Below, piece after piece: positions 2,791 to 28,322 of a stretch of DNA of 34,447 nt. The notes under the pieces were generated by a model. It did no database searches. It was not told the origin of the DNA and worked only from the letters and a program-made list of their open reading frames with translations. The stretch comes from Candidatus Poseidoniales archaeon (GTDB lineage Archaea; Thermoplasmatota; Poseidoniia; Poseidoniales; Poseidoniaceae). Where the stretch lies: assembly GCA_028283345.1 (NCBI GenBank), contig JAPOGE010000015.1, forward strand, positions 1 through 34,447, in the 5' to 3' direction. How positions within the stretch are numbered: position 1 is the stretch's first letter; every line of letters begins with the position of its first letter. Both the position numbers and the translations under genes were made by a program.

Positions 2791-2846
2791 GTTCACCGCT
2801 GACGCTAATGCACATCAATGGTTTGGATTTGTCGAATCACCTCAAA

Positions 2847-4114: not shown

Positions 4115-4144
4115 GGATGTGGGTGCGCGGTTCGGCGGGATTTA

Positions 4145-4552: not shown

Positions 4553-4563
4553 TCTGGTGCGGC

Positions 4564-4586
4564 CTGCTTCGATAAGGTTGAAGCAG
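4564..4586 (+). terminator. Hairpin downstream of the GcvH-like gene
   Basis: CTGCTTC (4564-4570) pairs perfectly with GAAGCAG (4580-4586) around a 9-nt loop, 12 nt after the stop codon and 20 nt before the next ATG. It could end the upstream transcript or fold in the leader of the lipoprotein mRNA. There is no T-run. Confidence 0.3.
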
Positions 4587-4605
4587 AATTGTTGCACGGA
4601 CGGTC

Positions 4606-6081: not shown

Positions 6082-6130
6082 AGGCATAAAGTGGGATGAA
6101 GTCAATACTTGTCGCTACGACCGGAAAGCG

Positions 6131-6241
6131 ATGTCACCTCCTCGCGGGAGCAAACTCAAACCACTCACCTTTGGTTTGATTCTCGTTGCACTGCTTCTCG
6201 CCACCTATGTTGTGGTTGCTGAAAGTGGCTTTGATGAGTGA
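6131..6241 (+). pseudogene. N-terminal segment of the CREST-like gene, cut off by TGA
   Basis: ATG at 6131, with GGAAAG upstream, opens a 36-codon frame with one hydrophobic helix (roughly residues 13-30) and ends at TGA 6239-6241. The same reading frame then stays open into the CREST-like protein, and the residues between the TGA and the first usable start include SCE, which matches the Cys-Glu near the N-terminus of ceramidase-family proteins. I infer that this is the true beginning of that gene, separated by one nonsense codon. It could instead be an independent small membrane protein. Confidence 0.5.
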
Positions 6242-6280
6242 AGCCAGCGAAAGATAGGCAAGAGCCCGGGCTCTTGTGAA

Positions 6281-6991
6281 TTGAATCGTGATGGCTATAT
6301 CCGCCAACCGGCAAATGCCTTCACCAGTCTGGCCATCGTCGTTCCGGGGCTGATAATCCTCCATCGGATGGAAAATCTACCGAGCCAGACCTTTGCCACC
6401 TATGAGCGGAGAACCAATTCCCCATACTGCGAGAAAACATTCGAGGTCGGCTTCTATGCAGTCAGCGTAATCATGGTTGGAATAGGTTCTTTCTATGCCC
6501 ATGGCTCGATGATGGTTTTCGGTTCGCATTTTGACAGGATTGCCATGGCAGTATGGATTCTCATCCCCCTGACATATGCTCTGGTCAGGGCATTTGCTTT
6601 GGGCCGACTCCACCACCTGATGATTTGCGCCTCAGCCTCGGTCATCTGTGCATGGTCGATGATTACGATAGATAAGTTCGGTGTGGTCGACCTTTATTTC
6701 ATACTCATTCCGATATGGGTCGTGCTGGAAATAATAGCTTACCTTAGAAATGAGGCAGGAATCGGCTACAACATCATCATTGTCGCCGGGTTATTCATTC
6801 TCGCCTATGGTGTACGCTCTCTCGGCAAGAAAGGTGATGCCACATGTTTGCCTGAGTCACTTTTCCAATGGCATGGATTATGGCACCTCCTGTGCGCATT
6901 CATCATCTGGTTCGTCTGGTTGCACATGACTGAGTTCAAGCCCAACTCCGGGGCTGGTGAAGATTGCGAAAGTGATGAAGAATCAGAATAA
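6281..6991 (+). CDS. CREST-superfamily (ceramidase-like) membrane protein
   Basis: 236 residues from a TTG codon at 6281, with about seven hydrophobic segments. The CREST metal-hydrolase pattern is present: S70 and H74 (SFYAH), D85 (HFDRIAM) and the H198-x3-H202 pair (WHGLWH). Such proteins (alkaline ceramidases, PAQR receptors, Per1) use these residues to bind zinc and hydrolyse amide bonds in lipids within the membrane. QPANAF near the start resembles the family's QPxNxxSN segment. The only in-frame start after the TGA at 6239 is this TTG, which would lose the Cys-Glu motif just upstream, so the gene is probably broken or misread here. The substrate in an archaeal membrane is unknown. Confidence 0.72.
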
Positions 6992-7051
6992 TTGCTGCAT
7001 TGACTCAAGCCAGAATAGGGAGGTATGCAGTGAGGGCGTGTAGCGCCGAAT

Positions 7052-8290
7052 CTAATCTGCATCCTTGTTTCTCTTGCTCGCGGCCTTCTCTTTTTCCGCA
7101 GCCATGGCCTTTTCCTTTGCCTGCAAGCGCTTGGCCTTGCGCCAGCCATAATACCAGCCCTGCAAGGTCTTGCTATTCATGAAAATCAGACCGATGATGC
7201 AACCCGGAACCGAAATGAGTAGAATCAACATCACCGCCTTAATTATCAGTTCATCTTCTTCGACCATGGTCGGCGTGAACTGGGCCAGACTGCCATCGCT
7301 GGAGAGGATGAAACCGTGAGTAATATCATCGCCCCAGACTTGGACCAGGCTGGTACTGCTCAATTCGATCTCGGAATCCTTGACAAGGTCGTGCTCTAGC
7401 ATCTTGTAGGCCTTGCGATTGTCCAATCGATACTGCACCAAGCCGTACGGCGCCATGGTGATTGAGATTGTATTGTCTCGCATGCTGGTGATTCCGGTGA
7501 ATTCTCCGGATAACTCGCCGATGACCTCCGGCGGCTCAACGATTGAGGTTACCGCATCATCGGGCTTGAGGATTATCGCACTGATGCGGCGACCGCTGGC
7601 GATGACCACGCACTCGTTGACATCCGCATCACTGCAGACTGCGCCGATCCAGGTATTCTCTGCGCTTCCGAGCCAATGGACTTGGCTATCACGGTCGATT
7701 ATCGCCACCCCATCTTGCACGGTGGTGACGATACAGACGGTGTGATGACGGTGGCAGGCAATGCTGGTAATCATGCTATCAGCGGTCTGGTCCAATAGTT
7801 GAAATCCATTTTCAGCATCGTAACTATAGATTCTACCACCCTCACCACCGAGATAGGCACGGTCACCGTTGTTACGCCAGGAGATGGCTTCGATATCGGT
7901 TCCCTCCAACATGCCGGTGCCGTCGACATTCTCGATGCTCTGGTCATTTTCCACATAGCGTAGCACGACCCCGGAATCCCCGGCGATGAGGGCGGTCTTG
8001 CCGCCGGTGTGCCAAGAGACCGAATTGAGCGGTGAGTTGACTCCGGTGTCGAACTTTATCCGAGTGCTGGCAGTACCGGGTGAATCGGCATTGAGCAGAA
8101 TTGCATAGCCTTCGTCGCCGACCGCGAGAACCCGGTCACCCTGAGGATTCATCTGCGCGTCATTCAGTCCGAGAGCCTGACTTTCGATTCGCCCCAGAGA
8201 CTCGATTTCGATGGTATGCGACTCGGCTATCACGGCGCTGGTCGATGATAGCAATACGAGAATGGCAAGCGACCACATCACCCTGCGCAT
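7052..8290 (-). CDS. Membrane-anchored beta-propeller protein
   Basis: 412 residues: an N-terminal signal peptide (MRRVMWSLAILVLLSSTSAVIA), then a WD40/YVTN-like repeat region where units of the kind NSVSWHTGGKTALIAGD and EAISWRNNGDRAYLGGEGG recur, then one transmembrane helix around residues 348-371 and a strongly basic Lys/Ala-rich cytoplasmic tail. The architecture implies an outward-facing propeller held in the membrane. No catalytic motif is visible; a binding or scaffold role is inferred. It is transcribed away from the plus-strand gene starting at 8426. Confidence 0.7.
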   Translation of the reverse strand: MRRVMWSLAILVLLSSTSAVIAESHTIEIESLGRIESQALGLNDAQMNPQGDRVLAVGDEGYAILLNADSPGTASTRIKFDTGVNSPLNSVSWHTGGKTALIAGDSGVVLRYVENDQSIENVDGTGMLEGTDIEAISWRNNGDRAYLGGEGGRIYSYDAENGFQLLDQTADSMITSIACHRHHTVCIVTTVQDGVAIIDRDSQVHWLGSAENTWIGAVCSDADVNECVVIASGRRISAIILKPDDAVTSIVEPPEVIGELSGEFTGITSMRDNTISITMAPYGLVQYRLDNRKAYKMLEHDLVKDSEIELSSTSLVQVWGDDITHGFILSSDGSLAQFTPTMVEEDELIIKAVMLILLISVPGCIIGLIFMNSKTLQGWYYGWRKAKRLQAKEKAMAAEKEKAASKRNKDAD

Positions 8291-8425
8291 GCCCCGGCGA
8301 CGCGTCTCTACTCATCAAAGGTAAGGTTGGGAACAACCCCCGAGTTTCGCCCTTGCCGAGGGAGGGGGTGGGATAAACCTCGTCCAGAAGGTCAAGCAAT
8401 CTCAGTCATGTGGGAGGTAGGTCTT

Positions 8426-8983
8426 ATGGGTGGTCTGCGATTCGGCGTGAATATGGAGAAGTTTGCGGTCAAGCGCGGTCTAATAAAGCAACTCGGCACA
8501 TCTGGTCTGACACAATTGGGGGCGAAGCATTTCGACGATGTCGTCGCCTCTGCCGAAGGTGGTTTTACCGCTAGCAAAGGGATATTGACCCATGTCGAGG
8601 CAAAATATGATGGCGAAGGTGCATTGGTTGTCGATTCACAACAGATGCGCGGCGTCGACCTTGAAGCGTTGCTATCGGAAGATGGTGGTCGTGAAACCGC
8701 AATGGCCAGCCGTACTGCGTGGTCATCCTTCCTCGACGAGGCGACCGGATATTCCCCCAAGCAACGCAGCGATAAGGCCAAAGTGGAAGGAAAGAAACTA
8801 TCCAAGGCCAAGAGTTCAATCAGGATGGCACTGAAAATGATCGATATGTCGAAGAGTATCAGCGATGAGACCATTGTCAAAGTGCATGAGTTAATCGCCG
8901 AGATCGAGGAGAAAATCGAGCAGAAAAATGCCGCTCGGGCGCAATCCCTAGGTGAGAAATTGGGGAAGCTGGTCGAAAGTTGA
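8426..8983 (+). CDS. Conserved hypothetical protein, possibly DUF5611-like
   Basis: 185 residues from ATG 8426, chosen because a perfect GGAGGT lies 7 nt upstream; the frame is open further but those codons look non-coding. The N-terminal half is an alpha/beta region (FAVKRGLIKQLGTSG, LTHVEAKYDGEGALVVDSQ). SSFLDEATGYSPKQR follows, and the C-terminal third is a charged coiled coil. The FLDEATGY-x-x-KQR stretch reminds me of DUF5611 proteins of Thermoplasmata and methanogens, but that is from memory and unsure. It lies 33 nt upstream of tyrS and is probably co-transcribed with it. Confidence 0.65.
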   Translation: MGGLRFGVNMEKFAVKRGLIKQLGTSGLTQLGAKHFDDVVASAEGGFTASKGILTHVEAKYDGEGALVVDSQQMRGVDLEALLSEDGGRETAMASRTAWSSFLDEATGYSPKQRSDKAKVEGKKLSKAKSSIRMALKMIDMSKSISDETIVKVHELIAEIEEKIEQKNAARAQSLGEKLGKLVES

Positions 8984-9016
8984 AAACTGAGAAGACCACT
9001 CTATCGAGATGAAATC

Positions 9017-10189
9017 ATGAACACGATGGCGCAGATGAGCGAGACGGAAATCGACGCGGTGCTGGCGCCATACGCCGAGACCCACGAAGTCGTTGCCACC
9101 CTTGATTCCGACCAGCGCTCCCGTCTGGCGTGGATGGTCGGCAGTGCCCAGGAAGTGGTCGGCATCGACCATCTCGCCAACTGCTTGTCCACCGGGACTT
9201 CGGCCGGCGGTGACGGCATCATTCGCGCCTACGTCGGATTCGAGCCGAGCGGGCGCGCCCATATCGGCTGGAAGGTGCTCTCGCTGGCATTGAGACGAAT
9301 GCTCGACGCCGGTGTCAACGTACTGATTTTCATGGCCGACTGGCACGCCTGGGTGAACGACAAGTTCGCCGGTGACATGGCCAAGATTCGCACCACTGCA
9401 GAGTATATGGAAGATACCTTCAGGGTTCTACTCGGCCATCCCGAAGAGGGAGAGGGGGCTGGTCAACTCCGTTTCCAATACGCCAGCGAATTGATGGATG
9501 ACGGTGATTATTGGGCGCGCGTCCTGCGCTGTTCAAAGAATATGAGTCTGGCGCGAGTTCGCCGAACCTTCTCGATAATGGGGCGCGACGAGGATTCATC
9601 GGATGGTGATCTGTCAAAATTCTTCTACCCGGCGATGCAGGCGGCCGACATATTCGAGTTGAATATCGACATCGCCATCGGCGGGATGGACCAACGCAAA
9701 GCGCACATGTACATGCGCGAGGCCGGTGACAAATGGAATTGGCTGAAGGCGACCTGCCTGCATACTCATCTGATATCGGGCCTTAAGTCGGCCGGCACCC
9801 GTATGGAATCATTCGACCACAAGATGAGCAAGTCCGACCCCGGCGGGGCGTTATTGCTACACGATACCCCTGAGCGTATGCGCAAGAAGATACGTAAGGC
9901 TTTCCTCGACCCGGCCGAAGGTAACTCGCCGATCTACGAATTGTTCGAACACATCGTCCTACCTGAATTCGGCCAATTAACCGTCACCCCGAATCCCGAG
10001 TATGGCGATCCCAGCACATGGTCTGATATCGATGCATTCAAGGCTGCAGTAGCCGATGCGAGTATTCACCCACTCGATGCGAAATTCGCCGTGGCTGACG
10101 CCCTTTCGACCGGCTTGGCCGATTTGGCGGAACACTTTGAGGCGAATCCGGAAAAGTTGGCCGCGGTGGTAGAGTTCACCCAAGACTGA
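9017..10189 (+). CDS. tyrS: Tyrosyl-tRNA synthetase, archaeal/eukaryotic type
   Basis: 390 residues, class I synthetase. The HIGH-type signature is AHIGW (residues 81-85) after YVGFEPSG, where the Tyr contacts the substrate tyrosine. FYPAMQAADIF supplies the Tyr/Gln/Asp set typical of TyrRS, and GGMDQRKAHM follows. KMSKS is at 269-273. Together these exclude TrpRS. It charges tRNA-Tyr in the cytoplasm. The ATG at 9017 has GAGATGA upstream. The N-terminal 70 residues before the catalytic core are longer than in compact archaeal enzymes. It is downstream of the 8426 gene and on the same strand as the acyl-CoA dehydrogenase at 10254. Confidence 0.93.
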   Translation: MNTMAQMSETEIDAVLAPYAETHEVVATLDSDQRSRLAWMVGSAQEVVGIDHLANCLSTGTSAGGDGIIRAYVGFEPSGRAHIGWKVLSLALRRMLDAGVNVLIFMADWHAWVNDKFAGDMAKIRTTAEYMEDTFRVLLGHPEEGEGAGQLRFQYASELMDDGDYWARVLRCSKNMSLARVRRTFSIMGRDEDSSDGDLSKFFYPAMQAADIFELNIDIAIGGMDQRKAHMYMREAGDKWNWLKATCLHTHLISGLKSAGTRMESFDHKMSKSDPGGALLLHDTPERMRKKIRKAFLDPAEGNSPIYELFEHIVLPEFGQLTVTPNPEYGDPSTWSDIDAFKAAVADASIHPLDAKFAVADALSTGLADLAEHFEANPEKLAAVVEFTQD

Positions 10190-10253
10190 GACATTTTTCC
10201 TTAGCCAACGGTTATCAAGTGCGGGCTGTGGCATTGAGCCATAGGTGAAAAGC

Positions 10254-11429
10254 ATGGCTTACGAGGGCTTGGACTTCTATGATGTCGAATCACTGCTGAG
10301 TGAAGAAGAGGTGATGATTCGTGATATGGTGCGAGATTGGGTCGAGGACGAGGTCCTCCCGAAGATCGAGCACGCCTGTCGTGAGGGGATATTTCCCGAT
10401 GAATGGCGGGTTGCCCTAGGCGAGATGGGAGTCCTAGGTGCCCCATTGAAAGGCTATGGTTGCCCCGGACTGTCCTATATGGCATATGGCCTCATCTGTC
10501 AGGAACTGGAGCGCGGTGACAGCGGTCTGCGCTCATTTGCCAGCGTGCAGGGCTCATTGGCGATGTACCCGATATGGGAATTCGGTAATGAGGAGCAGAA
10601 GGAGAAATACCTGCCAAAGATGGCCAGCGGAGAATGGGTCGGCTGTTTCGGACTGACCGAGCCAGATTACGGCTCAAACCCAGGGGATATGATAACCAAG
10701 GCTGAGGATATGGGCGACCACTATCTGCTCAACGGCGCCAAGATGTGGATTACCAACGGCACCATTGCCGATGTTGCAATCGTCTGGGCGAAATTGGACG
10801 GAGTCATCAAAGGCTTCATCGTCGAGAAGGATGATGAAGGGTTCAGCGCTCCGGAAATGACCGGTAAGCACTCACTCAAGGCCAGCGTCACCAGTGAACT
10901 GGTATTCCAGGACTGCAAGATTCCCAAAGACCGAATGCTACCCGATGTGAAAGGATTGAAAGGCCCGTTCTCATGTCTCAACAATGCCCGCTACGGCATT
11001 TCATGGGGAGCAATCGGTGCGGCGCAAGCCTGTTTCCATTCGGCCAAGGAATACGCATTGTCGCGGATTCAATTCGACCACCCCATCGCCTCTTACCAGT
11101 TGGTGCAGAATAAATTGGCGTGGATGTTGAGGGAAATCACCAAGGCACAACTCCTCGCCTACCACCTGGGATTGAAAAAGGACGATAGTACGTGGTTTGC
11201 CGAACAGATTTCCTTGGCTAAGATGAACAACGTCGACATGGCGCTGGAAATTGCCCGGATGGCGCGTGACATTCATGGTGCCAATGGAATCCTCGATGAA
11301 TACTGTATCATGCGGCATATGGCGAATTTGGAATCAGTAAAAACATACGAAGGTACTCATGATATTCACAACCTGATAATTGGCAAGTACATTACCGGCA
11401 TTCAGGCTTTCACCAGGAAACTCGATTGA
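10254..11429 (+). CDS. gcdH: Glutaryl-CoA dehydrogenase-type acyl-CoA dehydrogenase
   Basis: 391 residues. The glutaryl-CoA dehydrogenase branch is clear from RSFASVQGSLAMYPI, GCFGLTEPDYGSNPG and the C-terminal KTYEGTHDIHNLIIGKYITG, which contains the catalytic Glu. Characterised enzymes of this branch oxidise and decarboxylate glutaryl-CoA from Lys/Trp breakdown to crotonyl-CoA, passing electrons to ETF; some relatives act on other acyl-CoAs. ATG 10254 has AGGTGA 5 nt upstream (10243-10248), better than the in-frame GTG at 10245 that overlaps it. It lies 64 nt after tyrS. ETF is encoded at 301-1986 in the same window. Confidence 0.9.
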   Translation: MAYEGLDFYDVESLLSEEEVMIRDMVRDWVEDEVLPKIEHACREGIFPDEWRVALGEMGVLGAPLKGYGCPGLSYMAYGLICQELERGDSGLRSFASVQGSLAMYPIWEFGNEEQKEKYLPKMASGEWVGCFGLTEPDYGSNPGDMITKAEDMGDHYLLNGAKMWITNGTIADVAIVWAKLDGVIKGFIVEKDDEGFSAPEMTGKHSLKASVTSELVFQDCKIPKDRMLPDVKGLKGPFSCLNNARYGISWGAIGAAQACFHSAKEYALSRIQFDHPIASYQLVQNKLAWMLREITKAQLLAYHLGLKKDDSTWFAEQISLAKMNNVDMALEIARMARDIHGANGILDEYCIMRHMANLESVKTYEGTHDIHNLIIGKYITGIQAFTRKLD

Positions 11430-11563
11430 CCTAAGTGAATCTATTCGACGTAACCCGAAGAGATGTGCCGTGATATTTCATCTTGGCCTTTTTACAATGG
11501 TCGCCCTCTAATGGGAATTTAGTAGGTCGTTTCTTACGCTACCATGTGATGAAATTAGAGAAA

Positions 11564-12020
11564 TCAATCGTCATCCACTTCAATCATGAAGAGGGAACTT
11601 TCCAAACTTCGCACTTCGTTTTCGAGTTCTTCAACCTCATTCTTTTCAAGGTCAGGGTTTTTCAACAGTTTCTTTATTTCCTCGACGCGAGACTTCGACT
11701 TCTTGCGCTCTTTCTGTTGCTTATTGTCCACCTTGGTCATCTGTGCCTTGGCAACGCGTTGACGAGAAGCCTTGCTTTTGTCTGGTGTGCCACTTTGTAA
11801 TTCGTCCAGTTTGACTGCAATTGGGTAGGGGATGACGATATTCTCTGTTGCGAATTGCTCATCAATCTCACTCAGCAACCAATCCCTCGCAATCAATTCA
11901 TCTGTGTAGCTTGAGGAAGAACAGTGGATAGTCGGTGAGGTCGCCACCAATCTCATCGGCATGGGCGGCATAGTTGCGAAACACACACCAAGCCCCGTTC
12001 ATGGGTGAGCGACAGGTCAT
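11564..12020 (-). pseudogene. Frameshifted C-terminal piece of an MscS-type channel
   Basis: Two overlapping frames carry one apparent protein. Frame A (12020 to 11898) encodes 40 residues ending DLTDYPLFFLKLHR and a TGA. Frame B (11564-11986) contains DELIARDWLLSEIDEQFA and NIVIPYPIAVKLDEL, then a Lys/Glu coiled coil. The RDWLLSEIDEQF...IPYP pattern matches the end of the MscS cytoplasmic domain (E. coli WDLLERIKREF...FPYP). The two parts would join near 11900 with a one-base shift. No channel helices are encoded upstream, where stops occur in all useful frames, so I read this as a truncated, frameshifted remnant. Frame B might still be expressed as a 140-residue protein. Confidence 0.5.
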
Positions 12021-12062
12021 GGACTTGATTAAACTGTCATATCACGTTGGTGCTCAAAGGGT

Positions 12063-12533
12063 TCAATCCTCAGTGTCAGCATTGCAGATCGGACACATCC
12101 CGCAGGTGCAGCCGGTGGGAGAGAAATGGGGGATGAGCCAAAAGCCCCCGAGTAGTGCGGTCGAGTAGTGAAGCACTCCTACGACGACGCGCGCCTCTTC
12201 GCTCCCCGCCGAGGTGCCTGTCAATATGCCGCAGGTCCACAGGGTCTCCAGTGTGGCCAGTATCAACGCCAGCACACCGAAATGTACCCAAGCACCGTCT
12301 CCCCACTTCCCGTGCATCCACATCCAAACGAACGCTCCGACAGTCCCGGCGATACAGCAGGTGAGGACCATCATCATGGTGAACTGGCCGAATAGCATCA
12401 CCTCACCCGAGATCATGTCTTTGGGATACTCATCGTATCCAGCCACCTTGAGCACGATAAGAATGAGAATGTTGGTCGTCGCAATTACTCCCCCTGCCTT
12501 CAATCCACCCAAGGAAATCTCTTTCGCATTCAT
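12063..12533 (-). CDS. Four-helix membrane protein with C-terminal cysteine cluster
   Basis: 156 residues from ATG 12533. Four hydrophobic segments are visible (around residues 10-30, 46-72, 82-104 and 118-136), and the tail ends CTCGMCPIC, a C-x-C-x2-C-x2-C cluster suited to binding metal. No family is recognised. The start is 2 nt after the TGA of the CDGSH gene (TGAAGATG), with a G-rich SD-like stretch inside that gene, so translation is coupled to it. The pairing of an Fe-S protein with a cysteine-tailed membrane protein suggests, as inference, a redox or metal-handling pair at the membrane. Confidence 0.7.
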   Translation of the reverse strand: MNAKEISLGGLKAGGVIATTNILILIVLKVAGYDEYPKDMISGEVMLFGQFTMMMVLTCCIAGTVGAFVWMWMHGKWGDGAWVHFGVLALILATLETLWTCGILTGTSAGSEEARVVVGVLHYSTALLGGFWLIPHFSPTGCTCGMCPICNADTED

Positions 12534-12535
12534 CT

Positions 12536-12784
12536 TCAATCCCCCTTCGAATGGGTGCCGTCGCAATACGGTTTGTTGCCGCTCCGGCGGCAGCCGCAGA
12601 GGGCGATATTGCCCGACTTCTCCGCCTTGAAGACAATTGGAGCCAGCCCGGTCTCCTCCTTCGAATGGGTTCCGTCGCAGCGGGGCTGGGAGCCGCTCCT
12701 GCCACAAGCGCACCAGGCGATTGTCTGACCTTCCTCGACCTCGATGATGTAGGGGCTGGACTGAGACGCGACTGGGTTTGCCAT
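12536..12784 (-). CDS. Tandem CDGSH iron-sulfur protein
   Basis: 82 residues from MANPVASQ at 12784. Two CDGSH motifs of the form C-x-C-x2-S-x3-P-x-C-D-G-T-H occur: CACGRSGSQPRCDGTH and CGCRRSGNKPYCDGTH. Each binds a 2Fe-2S cluster through three Cys and one His, as in the CISD3/MiNT type with two motifs in one chain. Known relatives transfer electrons or clusters. The two DNA segments are also similar (GAATGGGTxCCGTCGCA occurs twice on the plus strand), pointing to internal duplication. The start at 12784 is favoured over the upstream frame (to 12826) because a TATA-like box is centred 24-25 bp before it, as for a leaderless gene. Confidence 0.9.
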   Translation of the reverse strand: MANPVASQSSPYIIEVEEGQTIAWCACGRSGSQPRCDGTHSKEETGLAPIVFKAEKSGNIALCGCRRSGNKPYCDGTHSKGD

Positions 12785-12804
12785 GTCAATGACGTGAGTC
12801 TGGT

Positions 12805-12812
12805 GATATATC
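12805..12812 (-). promoter_or_regulatory. TATA-like box of the CDGSH operon
   Basis: GATATATC is centred about 24.5 bp upstream of ATG 12784, with no Shine-Dalgarno site between. This spacing puts the transcription start at the A of ATG, typical of leaderless archaeal mRNAs, and equals the spacing seen at 31664-31671. Confidence 0.45.
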
Positions 12813-12997
12813 AATTTACTAGTCACAGTTCACGGCCCGAGCATTCATCCGCGCAAGCGTCGACTGCAGGCTTACGCACCGCTGGGAAATGCGACACGTT
12901 CGGTGCGTTCAATTTCAGGCAGAATTCTCATTTCCCTTGTTAGTTCTCATCAATATGTCAAAGCACAGCGTCACAATCTTTTTGTTGCGAGAAATGA

Positions 12998-13230
12998 ATT
13001 TCATCGCATGGAGAATGGCTGATTATCCTGCTGTGTACGGTTTTCGCCGGGATTGTCAGTGGTGCTGATATTTACTTCAAGTTGGTCTGGCTCCCGAAGA
13101 TGCGTGAGGAGAATACAGCATGGTCCTTGCTGAAACTGTTCGTAGTTTTTTGGTTGCTTCCATGGCCACCCCCCCCCCCACGCTAAAGAGGCGTGAGAAC
13201 AAAGGAGCACGAGAACCAGAGGTCTTGTAA
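12998..13230 (+). pseudogene. Broken small membrane-protein ORF with an 11-C run
   Basis: In the 456-bp gap between the CDGSH gene and the methyltransferase, one plus-strand frame (12998-13186) encodes WLIILLCTVFAGIVSGA, then IYFKLVWLPKMREENTAWSL, then LFVVFWLLPWPPPPP: two hydrophobic helices around a charged loop. It has no good start in frame; ATG 13009 (MEN) is shifted by one base. At its end an 11-base C run (13169-13179) leads to a stop; one extra C would continue the frame as a basic tail (TLKRRENKGAREPEVL) to TAA 13228-13230. I infer a gene with one or two frameshifts. The remainder of the gap (12827-12997, 13231-13283) shows nothing I can name. Confidence 0.35.
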
Positions 13231-13283
13231 TTATGAATCCACAAGTGTTCGTACCCCTATGCGAGCATTTTGAAGAAATATAT

Positions 13284-14099
13284 CTACTTGGTGAGCAAGT
13301 AGCGATGATATCCCAGCGAACCGTTCTGGAAGGACTCGTAGACCGGCGTGCCGCGCACGCCGGCGAAGGTCTCGAAGCTGCGTCTGATGGCTAGCGATGT
13401 ACCATTCTTGATTCGAGCCTGCTTATCATCACTCATCTCGTCCAAGGCCTTGAGCACCTCTGCTGTGACGTCGGAATGCTCAACTATCCCGAATCCGGTG
13501 TCGAGGAAAATATCGTGGACCTCGCGCATCCTCGATTCATCTCTGAAATCGGTCCAGGCGAACAGACCACCGGAGCGCAACACGCGGTGAACCTCGGCGA
13601 CAAATGCACCCATATCGCTGTAGCAATGGCTGGATTCGACATTGTAGATGATATCGAAGGACGTGTCATCGAAGGGCAGGGCCATCGCGTTACCCTTGAC
13701 GAAATCGAGGTTACCCTGCCCCGCATACAACCGTTCACAGAGTTGAACGGCCTTGGCGGAGTAATCCACGGCAGTAAGGGTTGAAGGAGAATAGGTCCGG
13801 GCGATCCAGTCCGCGCCTCCACCTCTTCCCGAGCCCACTTCGAGGACATTCTTGCCTCCGAGTTCGATGTCGCGGATGTTCATGTGATAGAGTTGGATGA
13901 ACAACCGGTCGCTCTCATCCTTCTCGTCGAGAACCGGCTGGTCTGCATCGGTGAAACCATAGTTCATGTAGTTCAGTTCGCCCCACTCCTTCGCCTTCGC
14001 CAGACGCTGGTACCACAACCGCCACATGCCATCTCCCATCCTCGCTGGAAGAATATGGTGCATCGTTGCAAAGATGCGCGCTGGAATCCCGAGTCGCAA
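13284..14099 (-). CDS. SAM-dependent methyltransferase, Rv2952-like
   Basis: Up to 271 residues, class I methyltransferase. Motif I is VLEVGSGRGGG; LPFDDTSFDIIYNVESSHCY and VLRSGGLFAWTDFR follow. The order and spacing, including the early NYMNYGF, LYHMNIRDIELGGKNVLEV and the C-terminal YHRYLLTK, resemble mycobacterial Rv2952 (phthiotriol dimycocerosate O-methyltransferase), as I recall that sequence. Such enzymes methylate hydroxyls on lipids or other small molecules; the archaeal substrate is unknown. The start is uncertain: the first codon of the frame is TTG (14099), with ATGs at 14063, 14039 and 14027, the last preceded by GGGAGAT. It lies in an accessory region between the 11-C and 9-G runs. 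Confidence 0.82.
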   Translation of the reverse strand: MRLGIPARIFATMHHILPARMGDGMWRLWYQRLAKAKEWGELNYMNYGFTDADQPVLDEKDESDRLFIQLYHMNIRDIELGGKNVLEVGSGRGGGADWIARTYSPSTLTAVDYSAKAVQLCERLYAGQGNLDFVKGNAMALPFDDTSFDIIYNVESSHCYSDMGAFVAEVHRVLRSGGLFAWTDFRDESRMREVHDIFLDTGFGIVEHSDVTAEVLKALDEMSDDKQARIKNGTSLAIRRSFETFAGVRGTPVYESFQNGSLGYHRYLLTK

Positions 14100-14199
14100 T
14101 TCTCACACCCGTTCAGCGGACCCTCTACAAGCACATTTTGATATGCATGCCACTCTCAGGATATTCGAGTTGCATTTCCTCCGTCAGTCATGGAGGTGC

Positions 14200-14208
14200 G
14201 GGGGGGGG
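14200..14208. repeat. Nine-base G run in an intergenic gap
   Basis: A run of nine G (plus strand) sits in the 171-bp gap between the start of the methyltransferase and the end of the 5-oxoprolinase gene. Apart from it I see nothing in this gap. Similar runs occur at 13169-13179 and 16136-16144. Confidence 0.6.
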
Positions 14209-14270
14209 TGCGGATTCACAAGCGTCCGTACTCCCGACTTGGCCCAAGGACCACGATGCTCACAAATTCA

Positions 14271-17200
14271 TCATTCAGGTGACTGATTATCCCAGGCACC
14301 ACCACCTGGTGTCTCTATGAGGACCCCCATGCCAGCCTCAAGTATCTTCTCGAACCGACCTGGGAGCACTTCAAGTCGGCCATCTCTGTGGACCAGGAAC
14401 TGGCACCCCACCGCTCCGTCCGCCCCACCTTGCATGCCAGGAGGGGGGAACTCCCGTCGCGAGGATAGCAGGGAGAAGTGTAGCCGTCGTCGGGCCTCGA
14501 TGTGCCTGACCACACCATCCCCTCCGCTGACTCGTCCAGCGCCGCCCGAAGCACGCCTCCTGGCAAACCTGCGCACAAGCACAGGGTAGCGAGTCTCCAT
14601 CACCTCGACGTCGCTGATCAAGGTGTTGGTCATGTGCACATGTCGGCAGTCCACACCTCGCAAAGCCTCTTCTCCGGGATGCAGAAGTGGGCCTATCGCA
14701 CCACCTCCTCCACCGATGGTCTCGTAGAATCCGAAGCTATCATCACCGAAGGTCAGGTTGTTCATCGTGCACTGAGAGCCTGCCATCAGACCTAGTGTGC
14801 GCATCAGCAGGTCGACGACCAGTTGCGAGGTTTCGACGTTGCCGCCGGCGACCGCATCGTCTGGCCCAGGGTCGAGCAGAGAGCCCGATGGAATGAAGAT
14901 GTTGAAGGGTTTGAGACAACCTGAGTTGAGTGACAGGTCCTCACCGAGCAGAGTTCTGAAAACATAGAGAACCGATGCTTCGACCACCGCTCGGGGAGCT
15001 CGTAGATTTCCCTGTGCCGGGGTACCGGTGCCTGAGAAGTCGAGCCTTGCCTGCTCCCCGGTTATCTCGACTCGGACCTGCAATGGCGTACCATCGTCGA
15101 GATGGTCGATACCGCTGAAGGTCTCTGCTGGCAAGCGAGCCAGAGAGCGCCGCATCGCCCTCGCCCCTCTTTGCAGCAGTGCTTCCATGCCGCTGGTGAG
15201 TGCTGTTGCATCCCAGCGTCCGAGTGATTCAATGACTTGCTGGCGACCCAGCTCGTTCGCAGCAACCTGCGCCTCGAGGTCTGCGAGCACGGACTCGACA
15301 TCTCTCACCGGCCAAGGGCCACTCGACAGCACTTCCGCAATGTTCTGCCGCTGAAACTGACCATTCAAGACCACAGGTAGGGCATGGAAGCAGACCCCTT
15401 CCTCAGATGCACTGGATGCGCTGGGTGACATCGAGCCTGGTGTCGAGCCTCCGATGTCAGCATGGTGAGCCCTGTTACCACATAGGCAGATCAGGCGGTC
15501 ACTGTGGTCATGGACGGGTGTGACGACCGTCACATCAGGCAGGTGACTCCCTCCTTGTGTAGGGTCGTTCGTGGCTAGCACAAGGGCGGCAGGCCAAGCA
15601 TTGCCAAGACCGGATTCATTTTTCGCCTCACCTGGGTTGACAAAGGTGGAGAGGAGCGCTTCAATCGATGCTGACATCGCACCGAGGTGGACGGGGATGT
15701 GGGAGGTGTTTGCCACCAGTTGTCCGCCAGCATCGAACAATGCGCAGGAGTAGTCTCTTCGGCGAGCGACGTTGACCGAGCGAGCGGTTCGGCGCAGAGT
15801 CTCGCCCATCTCGGCCGTGATACCGTCAAGGTGCTGACTCAAAACTTCGAGCGAAAGCGGTTCCTTGTTCCATTCCTCGACACTTTTTGCTGTCACTGAC
15901 CGCATCGAAGGTGTGCTTGTTAGCCTGAGCACCCAGTCACCATGTTCGTCGAGGTCACCTTGCCATCCGCTCTCAATCCACAACATGTGGGTAGGTGTCG
16001 ATATCATCATCGGCCCATCGAAGCGCGTGCCTGTGGGCAATGCATCATCAGCCAACAGCGGTACGGTCCACCATTCTCCATCGATCCATACTTGAGCCGA
16101 TTCCTCTTCCTTCATGGATGAGGACACAACTCTGCGGGGGGGGGTCGGCTGACCTTTCATCGAGGGTCGTTTACAGGTCACTCTGAGCAGTACGAACTCC
16201 AGTTCCAGTCGTTCAGGCACATAGCCATGAGTACGACTGTGCCGGGTTCGAAATGCACTCTCCAGTTCATCGAGTCCCGCCCAGTCGAGGAAGACCACAT
16301 CCTCCCGTCCGCGTTGGCGCACCCCCACCGAGAACAATTGTTCGAGGCTAACGGAGCCGTGCTTGAGTGCTTCACTCGCCTGTGCAGCCAGTTCCTTCAG
16401 TCCCTGCTCTGCCTGCTGCAGTGCTGACTTATCCCAACCGAGGTGCACCGTACGCTCACGGCGCTCTGATCTTGTTGCCACTGCGACGCCACGAGCAGAC
16501 AATATTCCAGCGTCAGAAGGCACAATCACCATGCGGATGTCAAGCATCTCCGCCAACTTACATGCAAACTGTGGACCTGCACCGCCGAAAGCGATGAGGG
16601 CATGTTCGCGCACGTCATACCCTTCAGCCACGGTGACCTGACGCATAGCCTGCACCATTTGAGCGACTGCAACATCAAGAAATCCCTCGGCAAGGTTCAG
16701 CATCCCCGCCTCGGAATCCTGCTCTTCATCCGTACTGTCAAGAGCAGCTAGCAGGCTTTGCAGCGCTATGGATGCAGGCTTGTAGTCGAGCGGGCGGTCA
16801 GCATCGGGGCCGAAACAGAAGGGGAGGGCTTCGGGAGGCAAGCGTCCGAGGACGACCAATGCATCGGTGAGAGTGGGAGGTCCGCTGCAGCCATAAGATG
16901 CAGGGCCGGGTACCGCACCTGCACTCTGTGGTCCGACCCGAGGGCGACCTCCCTCTATCTGCAGGATGCTGCCCCCGCCGCTGGCGATGCTGTGAATGGG
17001 TAGTTGGGGCACCGGAATACGCCTGCCTGCAAGCATCCTATCCTCAGCGAGACTCGTACTGCCGTCCCAACGACACACGTCGGTCGAAGTCCCTCCCATA
17101 TCGAGACCAACCGCCTCCGCTAACCGGTGCCTGTGGGCAATTTCACCTACAGCAATCAGCCCTCCAGCAGGTCCCGACAACAGTAGTTCGCTGGCCGCCA

Positions 17201-17942
17201 CCTCATCGATCGGTGCCAGCGAACCGTCCGAGCGCAAGCAAAGTGCATCGCTTTCATCCGCTAAATCCGCTGAGAAGGCATCGAGGGCTGCTCGGGTGTC
17301 AGGCAACAGTCTTCCTTCGAGCACCACCCGCTCGGTCCGCCGTAGCAATCCCTGCCGCGGATGCAATCGATGAGAGAGAATCACATGGCCGGCACCGAGT
17401 TCCCCGGCGATGCGTCCCGCAAGAATTTCGTGGGCCGGGTTCTCCACAGAGTGGACGAAAGAAATGACGACGATACCACCCTTTTGCAGCGATCCGGCCA
17501 ATGCTTTCCTAAGACCTTCTTCGTCGAGTTGCCTCTCCACGTCACCTTCTGGCAGCATCCGTTCCTCAACCTCGAGCACCCGATGGGTCAGCGGTTTGGG
17601 CGGATGCACCCAAGGCTGGAACAATTCAGGCCGAGTGCCGTCACCGAGCAGCAACAGGTCGCCAAACCCCGCTGTAATCAGCAGTAATGGTTGCTCACCC
17701 CTCCCTTCCAGCAACAGATTGGTCGCGATGGTGCTGGCGAACCGCACCTCTCCAGCCAACAACTGTTGCAGGGACGATAACTGCAGGGCGGCGGCCACTT
17801 CATTCCAAGGGAATGGGGCCTCCGAACCATCAGGCAACCTCGAGGGAAACTTCCCACTCGCCAGATTGTTCCCGGCATGATTGAACAGCAACCAGTCTGT
17901 GAAGGTTCCACCGCGGTCAAAGGCGAGGCGCCAACCGGTCAT
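14271..17942 (-). CDS. 5-oxoprolinase / hydantoinase A-B fusion
   Basis: 1223 residues from ATG 17942; the 41 residues of the longer frame (to 18065) do not resemble the family. The N-terminal half is the HyuA-type ATPase part: FDRGGTFTDW at the start (phosphate loop) and GLDMGGTSTDV in the middle. The HyuB part begins near residue 690 and has DYSCALFDAGGQLVANTSHIP and NDPTQGGSHLPDVTVVTP; it ends with the usual Gly-rich tail. The one-chain arrangement matches eukaryotic/bacterial OPLAH-type 5-oxoprolinase (about 1280 residues), which opens 5-oxoproline to glutamate with ATP; N-methylhydantoinases share the fold, so the substrate is not certain. A 9-G run (16136-16144) lies within the frame. 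It neighbours gene fragments and is probably transferred. Confidence 0.88.
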   Translation of the reverse strand: MTGWRLAFDRGGTFTDWLLFNHAGNNLASGKFPSRLPDGSEAPFPWNEVAAALQLSSLQQLLAGEVRFASTIATNLLLEGRGEQPLLLITAGFGDLLLLGDGTRPELFQPWVHPPKPLTHRVLEVEERMLPEGDVERQLDEEGLRKALAGSLQKGGIVVISFVHSVENPAHEILAGRIAGELGAGHVILSHRLHPRQGLLRRTERVVLEGRLLPDTRAALDAFSADLADESDALCLRSDGSLAPIDEVAASELLLSGPAGGLIAVGEIAHRHRLAEAVGLDMGGTSTDVCRWDGSTSLAEDRMLAGRRIPVPQLPIHSIASGGGSILQIEGGRPRVGPQSAGAVPGPASYGCSGPPTLTDALVVLGRLPPEALPFCFGPDADRPLDYKPASIALQSLLAALDSTDEEQDSEAGMLNLAEGFLDVAVAQMVQAMRQVTVAEGYDVREHALIAFGGAGPQFACKLAEMLDIRMVIVPSDAGILSARGVAVATRSERRERTVHLGWDKSALQQAEQGLKELAAQASEALKHGSVSLEQLFSVGVRQRGREDVVFLDWAGLDELESAFRTRHSRTHGYVPERLELEFVLLRVTCKRPSMKGQPTPPRRVVSSSMKEEESAQVWIDGEWWTVPLLADDALPTGTRFDGPMMISTPTHMLWIESGWQGDLDEHGDWVLRLTSTPSMRSVTAKSVEEWNKEPLSLEVLSQHLDGITAEMGETLRRTARSVNVARRRDYSCALFDAGGQLVANTSHIPVHLGAMSASIEALLSTFVNPGEAKNESGLGNAWPAALVLATNDPTQGGSHLPDVTVVTPVHDHSDRLICLCGNRAHHADIGGSTPGSMSPSASSASEEGVCFHALPVVLNGQFQRQNIAEVLSSGPWPVRDVESVLADLEAQVAANELGRQQVIESLGRWDATALTSGMEALLQRGARAMRRSLARLPAETFSGIDHLDDGTPLQVRVEITGEQARLDFSGTGTPAQGNLRAPRAVVEASVLYVFRTLLGEDLSLNSGCLKPFNIFIPSGSLLDPGPDDAVAGGNVETSQLVVDLLMRTLGLMAGSQCTMNNLTFGDDSFGFYETIGGGGGAIGPLLHPGEEALRGVDCRHVHMTNTLISDVEVMETRYPVLVRRFARRRASGGAGRVSGGDGVVRHIEARRRLHFSLLSSRREFPPPGMQGGADGAVGCQFLVHRDGRLEVLPGRFEKILEAGMGVLIETPGGGAWDNQSPE

Positions 17943-17967
17943 GCACCGGGGAGGCTGAATGCCCACA

Positions 17968-18150
17968 TCAGTGTTGCACCTGCTCGTAGTATGTGTCGAA
18001 AGAAGGAGCGGCATAGAAACTCGCAACCACGTTTTGAAATTCACCTTCGGGAGACATATTTTCAAACAATGTCAGATCCACAAGAGTCCGCACCCTTTGC
18101 GCAGGCCGAACGTTGTAGCAATACGTAGTAACCTTCGTTTTGGAGATGCT
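17968..18150 (-). pseudogene. C-terminal fragment of an unknown protein
   Basis: A minus-strand frame reads convincingly as protein, with CYNVRPAQRVRTLVDLTLF then EGEFQNVVASFYAAPSFDTY and a TGA at 17968-17970, just 25 nt before the 5-oxoprolinase start. The frame has one internal Met but no proper upstream gene body: it runs into the decayed duplicate at 18143. I do not recognise the family. The 360-bp gap 17943-18302 is thus filled by two gene remnants, with nothing else visible in 18253-18302. Confidence 0.35.
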
Positions 18151-18252
18151 CGCGCGCAGAGGAGTCGCCCTCCAGGGCCACCGGTTCTGCCCCGACATCC
18201 ACGCTGAAGGGGGTGGCGGAGACGAATATCTCTTAGCCTTCCTTCAGTTCGC
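18143..18252 (-). pseudogene. Decayed copy of the 3' end of the EF-hand gene
   Basis: This 110-bp stretch matches 19481-19591, the last 36 codons of the EF-hand membrane protein, at roughly 85-90% by eye, with about a dozen mismatches and two compensating one-base gaps. Translated on the minus strand it gives ELKEG, a stop, EIFVSATP, a shifted segment, then VALEGDSSAREHL, against ELKDGSEIFVSATP and VALDADSFAREHL in the intact gene. The in-frame stop and gaps show it is no longer coding. It lies in the same orientation as the intact copy, with the desaturase between them. Confidence 0.8.
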
Positions 18253-18302
18253 AATACGACAGTTCGAATCGATGCCTCAAATCCAGATGCACCACTGATA
18301 AT

Positions 18303-19334
18303 TCAGCACTGAATAACCTTCGGCTCATACTTCCAAGCTTTGTTGATGTAAACTGTAGACACCCACAAAGCCTTCCAAAAACCGATTTCTTCGTAAATCC
18401 AACCATTTTCCTCGGCGTACTTTTTGACGTGAGGAGCAATTTTCGGTAGGGAAAAGTGAGAAGCCGAAGGCAATAGATGATGCTCGATCTGATAATCTAA
18501 TCCAACAAAGAAGAAACTGCTGATTCGACTCATCTTGATACGACGAGAAGTCTCAACCTGCAAGCGCCAATTCTCATTTGAATCATACATGATTGGGCGT
18601 GCGGCATGGCCGACGATAAAAATCATCGAAAGAAATAACCCTACAAAAGACCACAATGCGAGATAAAAGCCCAACACCATGTACCACGATATTCCGGCAA
18701 GAACCGGTACTACCAACCACAGGAAATAGTGGAATACCAATAAAATACAGTCTAGGGCCCATATGCGGTTGAAGCGTTTCTGTTTGGAAACCTTGAAAGG
18801 ATGAGTGGCCAGAAACTGAATACTTTCCAAGCGCATTGAATGTCCAGCGAATAGGGTTAACGGCCAGAACAGCCACCCTTGGAGATTTTTTTGGAAGAAT
18901 TTTCTCAGCCTGCTGGAATTTTCATAATCCACGACCGAGAATGCCAAAGGCCAAACCTGGATATCTGGATCCTTATCGATGACATTCGGATGAGCATGAT
19001 GTTTGACGTTATGTTTGTCACGCCAGTGTTCCATCGAGAGCCCCGAGAATAAGGGAAAGACGATTGCCGCGAGACTGACATTGCCAAATCGCGAATTGCA
19101 AGCCGAAGAGTGTACCCCCTCATGGCCGGTCATGGCCAATGTGGTGGTGAACAATCCAGTCAGGGGTAATAAGGCAATACTCCAGCCCAATGGCAGGAGA
19201 AGATGGGTGAGGTAAAGGGTGGCAACTATAGCGAATAATAAGGCAACTTTAGTCCATGATCTAAGTGCGGATTTTTTCAACAATCCGAGTTCTTGCAGAT
19301 GATTTCGTAAAGCGGCAAGAGGATGTTCAGACAT
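18303..19334 (-). CDS. Membrane fatty acyl desaturase, front-end type
   Basis: 343 residues with the three histidine boxes of integral membrane desaturases: HEGVH (71-75), HNVKHH (108-113, after HWRDK) and QIEHH (282-286). Gln in place of the first His of the third box is typical of front-end (delta-5/6-like) desaturases; no cytochrome b5 domain is fused. Four to six hydrophobic helices surround the boxes. Di-iron enzymes of this family insert double bonds into acyl chains using O2. Its base composition looks more AT-rich than its neighbours, and it lies between direct repeats made from the end of the adjacent gene, so recent acquisition is likely. A substrate in an ether-lipid archaeon is unclear; carotenoid or polyketide-like chains are possible. 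Confidence 0.88.
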   Translation of the reverse strand: MSEHPLAALRNHLQELGLLKKSALRSWTKVALLFAIVATLYLTHLLLPLGWSIALLPLTGLFTTTLAMTGHEGVHSSACNSRFGNVSLAAIVFPLFSGLSMEHWRDKHNVKHHAHPNVIDKDPDIQVWPLAFSVVDYENSSRLRKFFQKNLQGWLFWPLTLFAGHSMRLESIQFLATHPFKVSKQKRFNRIWALDCILLVFHYFLWLVVPVLAGISWYMVLGFYLALWSFVGLFLSMIFIVGHAARPIMYDSNENWRLQVETSRRIKMSRISSFFFVGLDYQIEHHLLPSASHFSLPKIAPHVKKYAEENGWIYEEIGFWKALWVSTVYINKAWKYEPKVIQC

Positions 19335-19351
19335 GTTGAGACCCTCATTGG

Positions 19352-19360
19352 TAATTATTC
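19352..19360 (-). promoter_or_regulatory. Candidate TATA box of the desaturase
   Basis: GAATAATTA on the minus strand is centred about 22 bp before ATG 19334, in the 144-bp gap after the EF-hand gene. No Shine-Dalgarno site is visible, which fits a leaderless transcript. Moderate to weak evidence. Confidence 0.33.
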
Positions 19361-19478
19361 GGTCCGAGCATCATCTAATCAACTTTCAGTCTGAATGGGC
19401 TGAGACCATACCGATATCACAATTCAGCCCAACTTTGCAACTACTCTAGTGCGAAGAGACACATCGGGCGAATTATCC

Positions 19479-21464
19479 TCAGAGATGCTCGCGCGCAAAG
19501 GAGTCGGCATCCAAGGCAACCCGGTTCTGACCCGACATCCACGCTGCAGGGGTGGCAGAGACGAAAATCTCTGAGCCGTCCTTCAGTTCGCCAACCTCGT
19601 CATTGGCTGTTACCGGCAATCGGACGACCACTTCGACGCCGCTTTCTGTATGGCCTAGAACCGACATGCCGCCGCGGTGGGTATCGGGCAGGCCAAGTCC
19701 GAGCGTCCTCTCGGTGCGCTCGACCGAAAGGTGAAGATTGAGAGGTTCATTCCATTGGCCGAGCACCGCTTCACGCTCGGACATGAAGCGGGCGGCGCTC
19801 AGTTGTTCGACCAGCTGGGTAAGATCGACATCGGCAAACTCTGTATCGGCTGGCTCGGGCTCATCGGCTGGCTCGGACTCATCGGCTGGCTCGGGCTCAT
19901 CGGCTGGCTCGGGCTCATCGGCTGGCTCGACCTCGGACTCCAACTCGCCATCTTGCTCACCGGTATCGTCCAGCCCTTGCACGGTGGTCCCGGCCTCGAG
20001 TTCACCGGCATCGGCCGATGGTGCTGGCTCAAAGTCCAGTTCAGCCGCATCGCCAATGTCTTGGCCCTGCTTCATCGCCACGACTCCGGCACCGGCTACC
20101 GCACTCAACGCCGCCAATGAGGCCCATTTCTCGATCGACAACCCGTGCACGACATCGTCGACGAAGGTCGAGAGCAGGGCTTGAGCACTGGCTTTTTCGG
20201 AATCGTCATCGGCAGAGGTTATCATACCTTCAATGGTCTCAGCGGTCTCCCAGGCCTTGGCCTGATTCTCCTCGGGCAGGGTTGCGATTATCTCCTTCAA
20301 GGGGTGGTCATCTCTTCCCTCGGCGCTCTCGGCCTCCTCCTCAAGTGGGGTGTCTGGCTCGGTCTCGCCGGTCACGTCGGCATCGACCGCGACGGTCTCC
20401 GTGGTGGGCTCGGCTTGGTCGACTGATTCGGTGGCTGAATCGAACGCTGAATCACGATAATGGGGGATACCACCCATCGGTGCCTCGGCGACCACCATTG
20501 AGACGCTGGCCACTTCCATGGCGGTCTCGACAAACTCGGAATCATACATGCGAATATCCCAGAAGCCACCCTCGGATACGGTGAACTCCATCTCACCTTC
20601 GGTATTGCCGGCCAGATACTGGTAGTCTATCTCGTACTCCTCCAATTCCTCGATACCCCCGTGCGGGGCATCACTCGGCACCAGCCCGATCCAAGACTTG
20701 CGCTCGCTCGCCCAAGGGGGGGCCAAGAAGGTCACCTTCACCGACGAGCCGGCTACCGGATTTTCATTATCTACCTCGACCGATGGTTCAGCCGCATGCC
20801 AACCCATTCTCGCAAATAGGGCCAGCCATTCATCATAATCGATATTGTCGGAATCATCGGCATCGACCATAGCGATGATTGAGCCCATCAACCACGGCGG
20901 CAGGTCGGCGATTTTAATCTCGGCAAAGCCTTCGCGAATCTCAAAATGGTCGAGATAGCCATTGCCATCCTTGTCGATGCGGCGGAACAACATCCCCGGC
21001 GTGGTGCCGGTGCTAGCCATCCAATTGGCCACCTGACCGAACAGCAGGTCGGCATCGATACCCTCTCCCTGCAAGGCCCTGGCGCGCTGGGCGACCAGGC
21101 GTGCGTGCTCCTGTTGTTGCTGTGAGATACCCAGGTCATCAGCGCGACTCTGGGCGTTGGCCATCGCTATCCCGCCCAGTCCAGCGGTGCCGGCGACCGC
21201 GGCGGTACTGGTGGCGGCCCCGGCGATTATTCCGGCGACCATGAGGCCGATTAGTCCGATACAACAGGTAACTGATGCAATAGTGCCCCAGGTCTCTGAG
21301 CCGGTCAGCCACGATAACACCATGAACATCGCCGCTAAGCCAATCGAGGTTTGACCGAATTTCAGCCATCCGGCATTTGTCGCCACAGTCTGCACCGCTT
21401 GGGTAGCCCCGGGTGGCATCGCCATAGTGCGGGGATGAAGTAGGGGGGTATGATTGTTCACCAC
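19479..21464 (-). CDS. EF-hand membrane protein with PADEPE repeats
   Basis: Up to 661 residues. Two hydrophobic helices (about 33-53 and 61-84) are followed by a paired EF-hand: loop 1 at 164-175 (DKDGNGYLDHFE) and loop 2 at 201-212 (DADDSDNIDYDE), both with good Ca2+ ligands at positions 1, 3, 5, 9 and 12. A beta-rich domain follows (220-330), then an acidic linker, a short hydrophobic patch (ASLAALSAVAGAGVVAM), and a run of PADEPE units. The last 100 residues form another domain ending DSFAREHL. A calcium-responsive membrane protein is inferred. The frame starts with GTG 21464 directly after the stop of the CCA gene; ATG 21425 is an equally good start. Confidence 0.75.
   Translation of the reverse strand: MVNNHTPLLHPRTMAMPPGATQAVQTVATNAGWLKFGQTSIGLAAMFMVLSWLTGSETWGTIASVTCCIGLIGLMVAGIIAGAATSTAAVAGTAGLGGIAMANAQSRADDLGISQQQQEHARLVAQRARALQGEGIDADLLFGQVANWMASTGTTPGMLFRRIDKDGNGYLDHFEIREGFAEIKIADLPPWLMGSIIAMVDADDSDNIDYDEWLALFARMGWHAAEPSVEVDNENPVAGSSVKVTFLAPPWASERKSWIGLVPSDAPHGGIEELEEYEIDYQYLAGNTEGEMEFTVSEGGFWDIRMYDSEFVETAMEVASVSMVVAEAPMGGIPHYRDSAFDSATESVDQAEPTTETVAVDADVTGETEPDTPLEEEAESAEGRDDHPLKEIIATLPEENQAKAWETAETIEGMITSADDDSEKASAQALLSTFVDDVVHGLSIEKWASLAALSAVAGAGVVAMKQGQDIGDAAELDFEPAPSADAGELEAGTTVQGLDDTGEQDGELESEVEPADEPEPADEPEPADESEPADEPEPADTEFADVDLTQLVEQLSAARFMSEREAVLGQWNEPLNLHLSVERTERTLGLGLPDTHRGGMSVLGHTESGVEVVVRLPVTANDEVGELKDGSEIFVSATPAAWMSGQNRVALDADSFAREHL
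19843..19932. repeat. Five 18-bp tandem repeats within the EF-hand gene
   Basis: Five nearly identical 18-bp units (TCATCGGCTGGCTCGGGC on the plus strand) follow each other; each codes for six residues of the PADEPE/ADEPEP type on the minus strand. The unit length is a multiple of three, so copy-number change keeps the frame and only lengthens or shortens the acidic spacer. Confidence 0.85.
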
Positions 21465-28189: not shown

Positions 28190-28322
28190 GCTCGGCACTT
28201 TCACTTGCTCGGCACTTTCACTTTCTCGGCACTTTCACTTGCTCGGCACTTTCACTTACCTATCGGCAGTCCACTTTCACTTCCTCGGCACTTTCACTTA
28301 CCTATCGGCAGTCCACTTTCAG
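28190..28322. repeat. 17-bp tandem repeat cluster (minisatellite)
   Basis: Between the convergent DUF2085 and kinase genes, a 17-bp unit (GCTCGGCACTTTCACTT) occurs four times in a row at 28190-28257 and once more at 28283-28299. A second unit of about 25 bp, ACCTATCGGCAGTCCACTTT with a CACTT or CAG end, occurs at 28258-28282 and 28300-28322 and runs into the stop codon of the kinase gene. There are no spacers of equal length, so this is not a CRISPR array. The cluster fills most of the 169-bp intergenic region. Confidence 0.85.

Follow-up and report, generated by a model that had tools for sequence, protein, structure and literature searches.

Does the presence of direct repeats on either side of a gene identify that gene as the insert? 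The question is raised by a fatty acid desaturase gene in contig JAPOGE010000015.1 (C66), from a draft genome of Candidatus Poseidoniales archaeon (2.14 Mb, 201 contigs); the whole 34,447 nucleotide stretch analysed is referred to here as the window. The gene lies between two copies of a 110 bp sequence from the 3' end of the adjacent EF-hand gene, and a preliminary description had read this as insertion of the desaturase by recombination at that 3' end, with the outer copy left as a scar and the site being an integration hot spot. We compared the locus with that of Euryarchaeota archaeon UBA60 (G001; contig DARQ01000098.1), which NCBI places in Ca. Poseidoniales (marine group II archaea) and which is the sole congener with a genome in the collection, the genus comparison comprising two genomes in total; family comparisons covered 171 genomes for the desaturase and 167 for a neighbouring hydantoinase. 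It is probable, in our judgement, that the outer repeat copy (copy 1) marks the right-hand join of a foreign piece of chromosome of about 6 kb, and is not a target duplication produced by the desaturase. The features around the repeat are as follows.

18099-18142, minus strand: rep1, a degenerate copy of a 44 bp dispersed hairpin repeat, abutting copy 1
18143-18252, minus strand: copy 1, a decayed 110 bp EF-hand gene 3' end with two frameshifts and a TAA, at the right seam of the genome-specific segment
18303-19334, minus strand: fatty acid desaturase gene, intact, 343 aa (Pfam FA_desaturase, E 4e-33), in the same place in UBA60 with 97% amino acid identity
19482-19591, minus strand: copy 2, the live EF-hand gene 3' end, 92% identical in UBA60
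19479-21464, minus strand: EF-hand gene, 661 aa, 79% in UBA60

Copies 1 and 2 are in the same orientation and align with 98 of 111 columns identical (88%) and a single-base gap in either copy, which bears out the earlier estimate by eye of 85-90%, the second copy spanning 19482-19591 and not 19481-19591. The ungapped pieces of the alignment are 94, 91 and 88% identical, and the repeat was recovered in a flank-against-flank BLAST with E = 6e-35; the match is therefore not due to chance. The repeated 110 bp are the final sense codons of the EF-hand gene, excluding the stop codon, and copy 1 is indeed frameshifted and stopped as first described, with a +1 shift, a -1 shift and an in-frame TAA. 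A search of the genome found no further matches to the repeat beyond these two copies. The desaturase between them is AT-rich, as had been noticed, with a G+C content of 0.453 versus 0.55-0.60 in most neighbouring genes.

The proposal that insertion of the desaturase made the repeat fails in the comparison with relatives that the preliminary description had itself suggested. UBA60 is collinear with the window through the EF-hand gene, a 147 bp spacer, the desaturase and 50 bp beyond, and BLAST homology followed from the EF-hand gene and its neighbours ends exactly at 18253, the inner edge of copy 1; at this desaturase locus UBA60 has no second EF-hand gene end. The congener thus carries the desaturase without the repeat, and flanking repeats are absent from 18 other desaturase loci, UBA60 included (BLAST of flank against flank, the best result being an 18 bp match). 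Because of this we reject a mobile desaturase unit that duplicates its target.

Copy 1 is instead the edge of a segment on its far side. Window positions 289-11909 are collinear with UBA60 contig C73, no UBA60 counterpart of 11910-18142 was found apart from short dispersed repeats, and the segment specific to the window genome relative to UBA60 is 11910-18252, approximately 6.3 kb. The genes of this segment, which also holds a small open reading frame without assignment, and the remnant that adjoins it are listed below.

11564-11909, minus strand: last 116 codons (319-434) of an MscS channel gene that is whole in UBA60, ending at the left seam 11909/11910
11910-12020, minus strand: codons 1-37 of an FAA-hydrolase-type gene, which the left seam truncates
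12536-12826, minus strand: CDGSH iron-binding protein gene, within the genome-specific segment
13282-14203, minus strand: methyltransferase unit (the gene itself at 13284-14099), 92% nucleotide identity to a unit on contig C27 of genome G030
14271-17942, minus strand: hydantoinase/oxoprolinase gene, absent from UBA60

Both ends of the segment are broken genes: the hydrolase against MscS on the left, and an EF-hand gene end on the right. The hydrolase fragment is joined out of frame to the MscS remnant, and there is no other close copy of the MscS gene in the window genome. Thirteen solved chains match the 37-codon fragment, nearly all of them named as fumarylacetoacetate-hydrolase family (best E 0.0015), and it stands at 33-44% against genes of other Poseidoniaceae; Pfam alone gave E 0.2. 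No shared sequence was found at either seam (18252/18253 and 11909/11910), a result compatible with microhomology of a few bases. In UBA60, a long gene starts behind the desaturase on contig C37 and is cut off by the contig end. Contig C73 opens partway through a long Ig/TSP3 gene of the same direction, after which come the complete MscS channel gene and the dehydrogenase shared with the window; the two contigs presumably meet within one giant surface-protein gene.

Copy 1 together with rep1 looks like the genuine end of another EF-hand gene, distinct from copy 2, because rep1 elsewhere begins at a TAA stop (exactly at that of an open frame in two of its four other copies) and the triplet that follows copy 1, CAA, is a single change from TAA. 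Judged from the other rep1 copies, the stop codon of copy 1 would have been a TAA that mutated to CAA; copy 2 ends in TGA, without rep1. An intact rep1 copy folds into a strong hairpin, which has been lost at 18099-18142. Copy 1 differs from copy 2 at 11 of 109 sites, versus 8 of 346 between the MscS remnant and UBA60 (Fisher p 0.0012), suggesting that copy 1 was probably already different on arrival, provided that the flanks were not homogenised after the seam formed; this is evidence against a local duplication.

The DNA on both sides of the segment is also unusually close to that of UBA60, in two tracts (strand not applicable).

10200-11909: second low-divergence tract (acyl-CoA dehydrogenase, MscS remnant), shared with UBA60, 96-98%
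18253-19700: low-divergence tract (desaturase, spacers, EF-hand 3' end), shared with UBA60, ending inside the EF-hand gene at about 19.7 kb

At synonymous sites, divergence from UBA60 amounts to 0.16 for the desaturase, 0.05 for the MscS remnant and 0.11-0.13 for the dehydrogenase, versus 0.38-0.86 for most other genes (two far-left genes are at 0.15-0.17, and two comparisons did not align). Spacers within the tracts are 96-98% identical, and the other spacers, pooled, 81% with wide scatter. Because divergence is lowered in both tracts relative to most other genes, the sequences indicate that the DNA flanking the segment on both sides was exchanged between the lineages more recently than most shared genes separated. 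Further into the EF-hand gene, an 18 bp tandem repeat encoding an acidic repeat (19845-19952) lies close to the gene's maximum divergence from UBA60.

From these pieces and breaks, which are plainly visible, we infer a donor, the arrangement of its genes and which way the event ran. The order before the event would have been congener-like: EF-hand gene, desaturase, giant surface protein, MscS and acyl-CoA dehydrogenase. The incoming DNA would have carried, in order, an EF-hand 3' end (copy 1), rep1, the hydantoinase, the methyltransferase, CDGSH and the first 37 codons of the FAH-type hydrolase, and would have been a linear chromosome piece of a relative in which the hydantoinase directly follows the EF-hand gene. 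This piece would have been broken at random inside the EF-hand and hydrolase genes, and joined at both ends without evident homology. A single replacement between the desaturase and MscS would then have deleted the giant gene and most of MscS, in keeping with the present arrangement, in which the stretch from 50 bp past the desaturase to MscS codon 318 is replaced. Copy 1 would be the end of the relative's EF-hand gene, retained as a functionless and decaying relic.

Several points weigh against this reconstruction. No genome with the postulated donor order of EF-hand gene, rep1 and hydantoinase was found, the comparison has only two genomes of the genus, and UBA60 is broken across two contigs at this very spot. 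The direction of the event is deduced from the MscS gene being the broken one. Later homogenisation of the flanks with the UBA60 lineage, which is possible because the low-divergence tracts exist, would void the clock argument drawn from the MscS remnant.

Other routes to the same arrangement have to be weighed against a spliced-in fragment. In its strongest version, the preliminary reading has the desaturase as the later arrival, in a chromosome whose resident order was EF-hand gene, rep1 and hydantoinase. A UBA60-like donor would have supplied a piece with its own EF-hand 3' end plus the desaturase; this piece would have recombined at one end within the resident EF-hand gene and been joined illegitimately at the other, so that the resident 3' end, now copy 1, came to lie beyond the desaturase. 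Such an entry agrees with a low-divergence tract that begins inside the EF-hand 3' end and spans the desaturase, with the AT-richness of that gene, and with copy 1 plus rep1 reading as a former live gene end. However, it leaves the truncated hydrolase gene, the MscS remnant and the second low-divergence tract unexplained, and since the desaturase haplotype, in UBA60 order, flanks the hydantoinase segment on both sides a second event would be needed; we regard this order of events as unlikely. Copying of nearby sequence into breakpoints is an established outcome of repair, and copy 1, lying exactly at the breakpoint, could be a duplicate of copy 2 if repair synthesis during joining of the hydantoinase segment copied 110 bp of the EF-hand gene from 1.3 kb away. 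The copying would nonetheless have had to end by chance exactly at the last sense codon, beside a repeat that elsewhere starts at stop codons, and divergence is higher in copy 1 than in the MscS remnant of the opposite seam, the caveat of homogenisation applying here too. Dated by that remnant a local duplication is disfavoured, and we think a patch of this sort quite unlikely.

A draft genome in 201 contigs might also contain a chimeric contig, put together by the assembler from two strains or organisms, which would make the repeat an artefact. Yet the two copies have no long exact stretch in common and no sequence is shared at the junction 18252/18253, so that an assembly overlap is rejected; there are no Ns, and the outer blocks are adjacent in other genera and match the congener. 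Such a join strikes us as very improbable. Three further candidates were set aside. A site-specific element at a gene 3' end, with the copies as attL and attR, does not describe the locus: no integrase gene lies between the repeats, where there is only the desaturase, no recombinase is present among the Pfam-scanned genes of the neighbouring segment, and the second repeat copy is absent in UBA60 and at 17 further desaturase loci. No tRNA or known RNA gene was found in the window, and integration at one was rejected. A virus as carrier of the gene was rejected too, a search of viral contigs having found no close relative of the desaturase.

The proposed replacement beside the desaturase is an event of a known kind, a replacement island formed by illegitimate recombination, whose seams are unusually readable. 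For the replacement flexible genomic islands of aquatic prokaryotes, Lopez-Perez et al. (2014, PMC4033161) report boundaries that lack clear hallmarks of illegitimate recombination and alternatives of similar function. As in those islands, unrelated gene clusters occupy the same place between shared flanks, one version with a giant protein gene, and the bordering shared genes carry a recombination signal, although here divergence is lowered, not raised, and the comparison is between species, not strains. Unlike those islands, the seams are visible, and the contents do not share a function, typically that of exposed cell structures: hydantoinase, methyltransferase and CDGSH stand against the giant Ig/TSP3 protein and MscS of UBA60. 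The locus thus works like a replacement flexible genomic island without being a typical member. In illegitimate or homology-facilitated illegitimate integration (de Vries and Wackernagel 2002; Hulter and Wackernagel 2008, as referenced in PMC13344027), foreign linear DNA is likewise joined at broken gene ends with deletion of resident DNA, and the joins here do lie inside genes without shared junction sequence; that process was demonstrated experimentally in transformable bacteria, whereas we deduce it from one archaeal draft genome. In Ca. Poseidoniales, gene replacement by horizontal transfer is documented for proteorhodopsin (PMC6461757), a case from the same archaeal order that likewise involves swaps between close relatives. 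In that case the incoming gene takes the place of a homologue, whereas at the present locus the exchanged contents are unrelated and the seams can be seen.

We found no literature report of this desaturase/EF-hand locus, and desaturases, UBA60 and genomic islands all go unmentioned in the main text of the two principal surveys of Poseidoniales. In uncultured ocean archaea, swaps of unrelated gene blocks are mostly inferred from gene content, the joins usually having been erased. Here both are legible, with what appears to be a relative's gene end on one side and two fused broken genes on the other. The locus also carries a warning: a repeat flanking a gene need not make that gene the insert, and a single relative sufficed to shift the insert to the other side of the repeat.

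The broader part of the original proposal, insertion at the EF-hand gene 3' end, survives. In g5 and g6 genomes the EF-hand gene is directly followed by the block genes that this genus has beyond the variable stretch, whereas this genus has extra genes beside the EF-hand gene 3' end, with different contents in the two known genomes. Because nothing separates the EF-hand gene from the next conserved block in other genera, the site does accept insertions, and foreign DNA has been inserted beside it; the case for an integration hot spot comes from two genomes of a single genus. The desaturase is probably itself an acquired gene. It is AT-rich and has a patchy distribution, occurring in 54 of 171 family genomes, and the low-divergence tract that spans it starts within the 3' end of the EF-hand gene. 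Outside the genus, the closest relative, at 82%, is in the sole g10 genome with a match; the G+C content of the desaturase is clearly below that of both flanks in the window genome only, just the EF-hand side being richer in UBA60. In genome G193, of another genus, an MscS channel gene and a desaturase are adjacent and divergent (L112:2668-5174), and the two are near neighbours in UBA60 too; the pair may travel together.

Among the genes of the segment, the hydantoinase has a single distant relative in the 167 family genomes. Together with its leader, the methyltransferase matches the G030 unit, from another genus, at 92% identity across 924 bp, in surroundings without a match, which indicates that the unit has moved between genera. 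Hairpin repeats lie near it.

14208-14231, minus strand: hairpin repeat (GTACGGACGCTTGTGAATCCGCAC), between methyltransferase and hydantoinase
13231-13254, minus strand: degenerate, weak copy of the GTACGGACGCTTGTGAATCCGCAC hairpin repeat, with 7 mismatches

In the window genome and in G030 alike, identity across the methyltransferase unit breaks off no more than 16 bp from a hairpin repeat. A hairpin core GGACGCTTGTGCGTCC with modular arms such as TTGGGCCAAGTCYGGGAGT is intergenic in g1 and g6 genomes (window 14208-14231, 13231-13254 and 18075-18090; L102, L144, L230 and L235). The core GGACGCTTGTGCGTC, allowing at most one mismatch, occurs 10 times in the window genome; three g6 genomes have 7, 6 and 4 copies, no control matched in any of these four genomes, and 0-2 copies were found elsewhere; in 2.9 million viral contigs the 40 single matches to the hairpin core, one per contig, were taken as chance. 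At the inspected loci several blocks common to genomes end within 20 bp of a hairpin repeat, an association that is a lead and not a result as these loci were selected for having the repeat. A second dispersed repeat, TCTAAACCCGGGATTTTAACACGTTTTTCCCGGGAACATTGG (L033:11127-11196; L083, L084, L085, L087 and L243), is often joined to the hairpin and often at contig ends, and begins exactly where UBA60 and the window diverge.

It is conceivable, and we think doubtful, that the GGACGCTTGTGCGTCC cores and modular arms, an intergenic family of the related Poseidoniales genera g1 and g6 that resembles the interspersed mosaic elements of bacteria, delimit gene-sized units which genomes exchange and reshuffle; the segment by copy 1 would then be a small array, its cassettes exchanged by a recombinase or by homologous pairing at the repeats. 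An integron gene-cassette array has attC sites with RYYYAAC/GTTRRRY cores, cassettes in one orientation and an integron integrase. The hairpin repeats are short palindromes in which such cores were not seen by eye, and the flanking genes point both ways (a genome-wide integrase search was not made); an integron reading of the hairpin-bounded units is not supported by the anatomy of the repeats, and the paper on archaeal integrons makes no mention of this phylum.

Elsewhere in the window, acyl-CoA dehydrogenase paralogues (2847-4070 and 10245-11429) stand at opposite ends of a block, the end genes of which are swapped relative to genus g6 (G006), which suggests nested inversions. At 28196-28313 there are intergenic repeats of 17 bp and 42 bp (CACTTTCACTTNCTCGG), mostly gapped in the alignment with UBA60.

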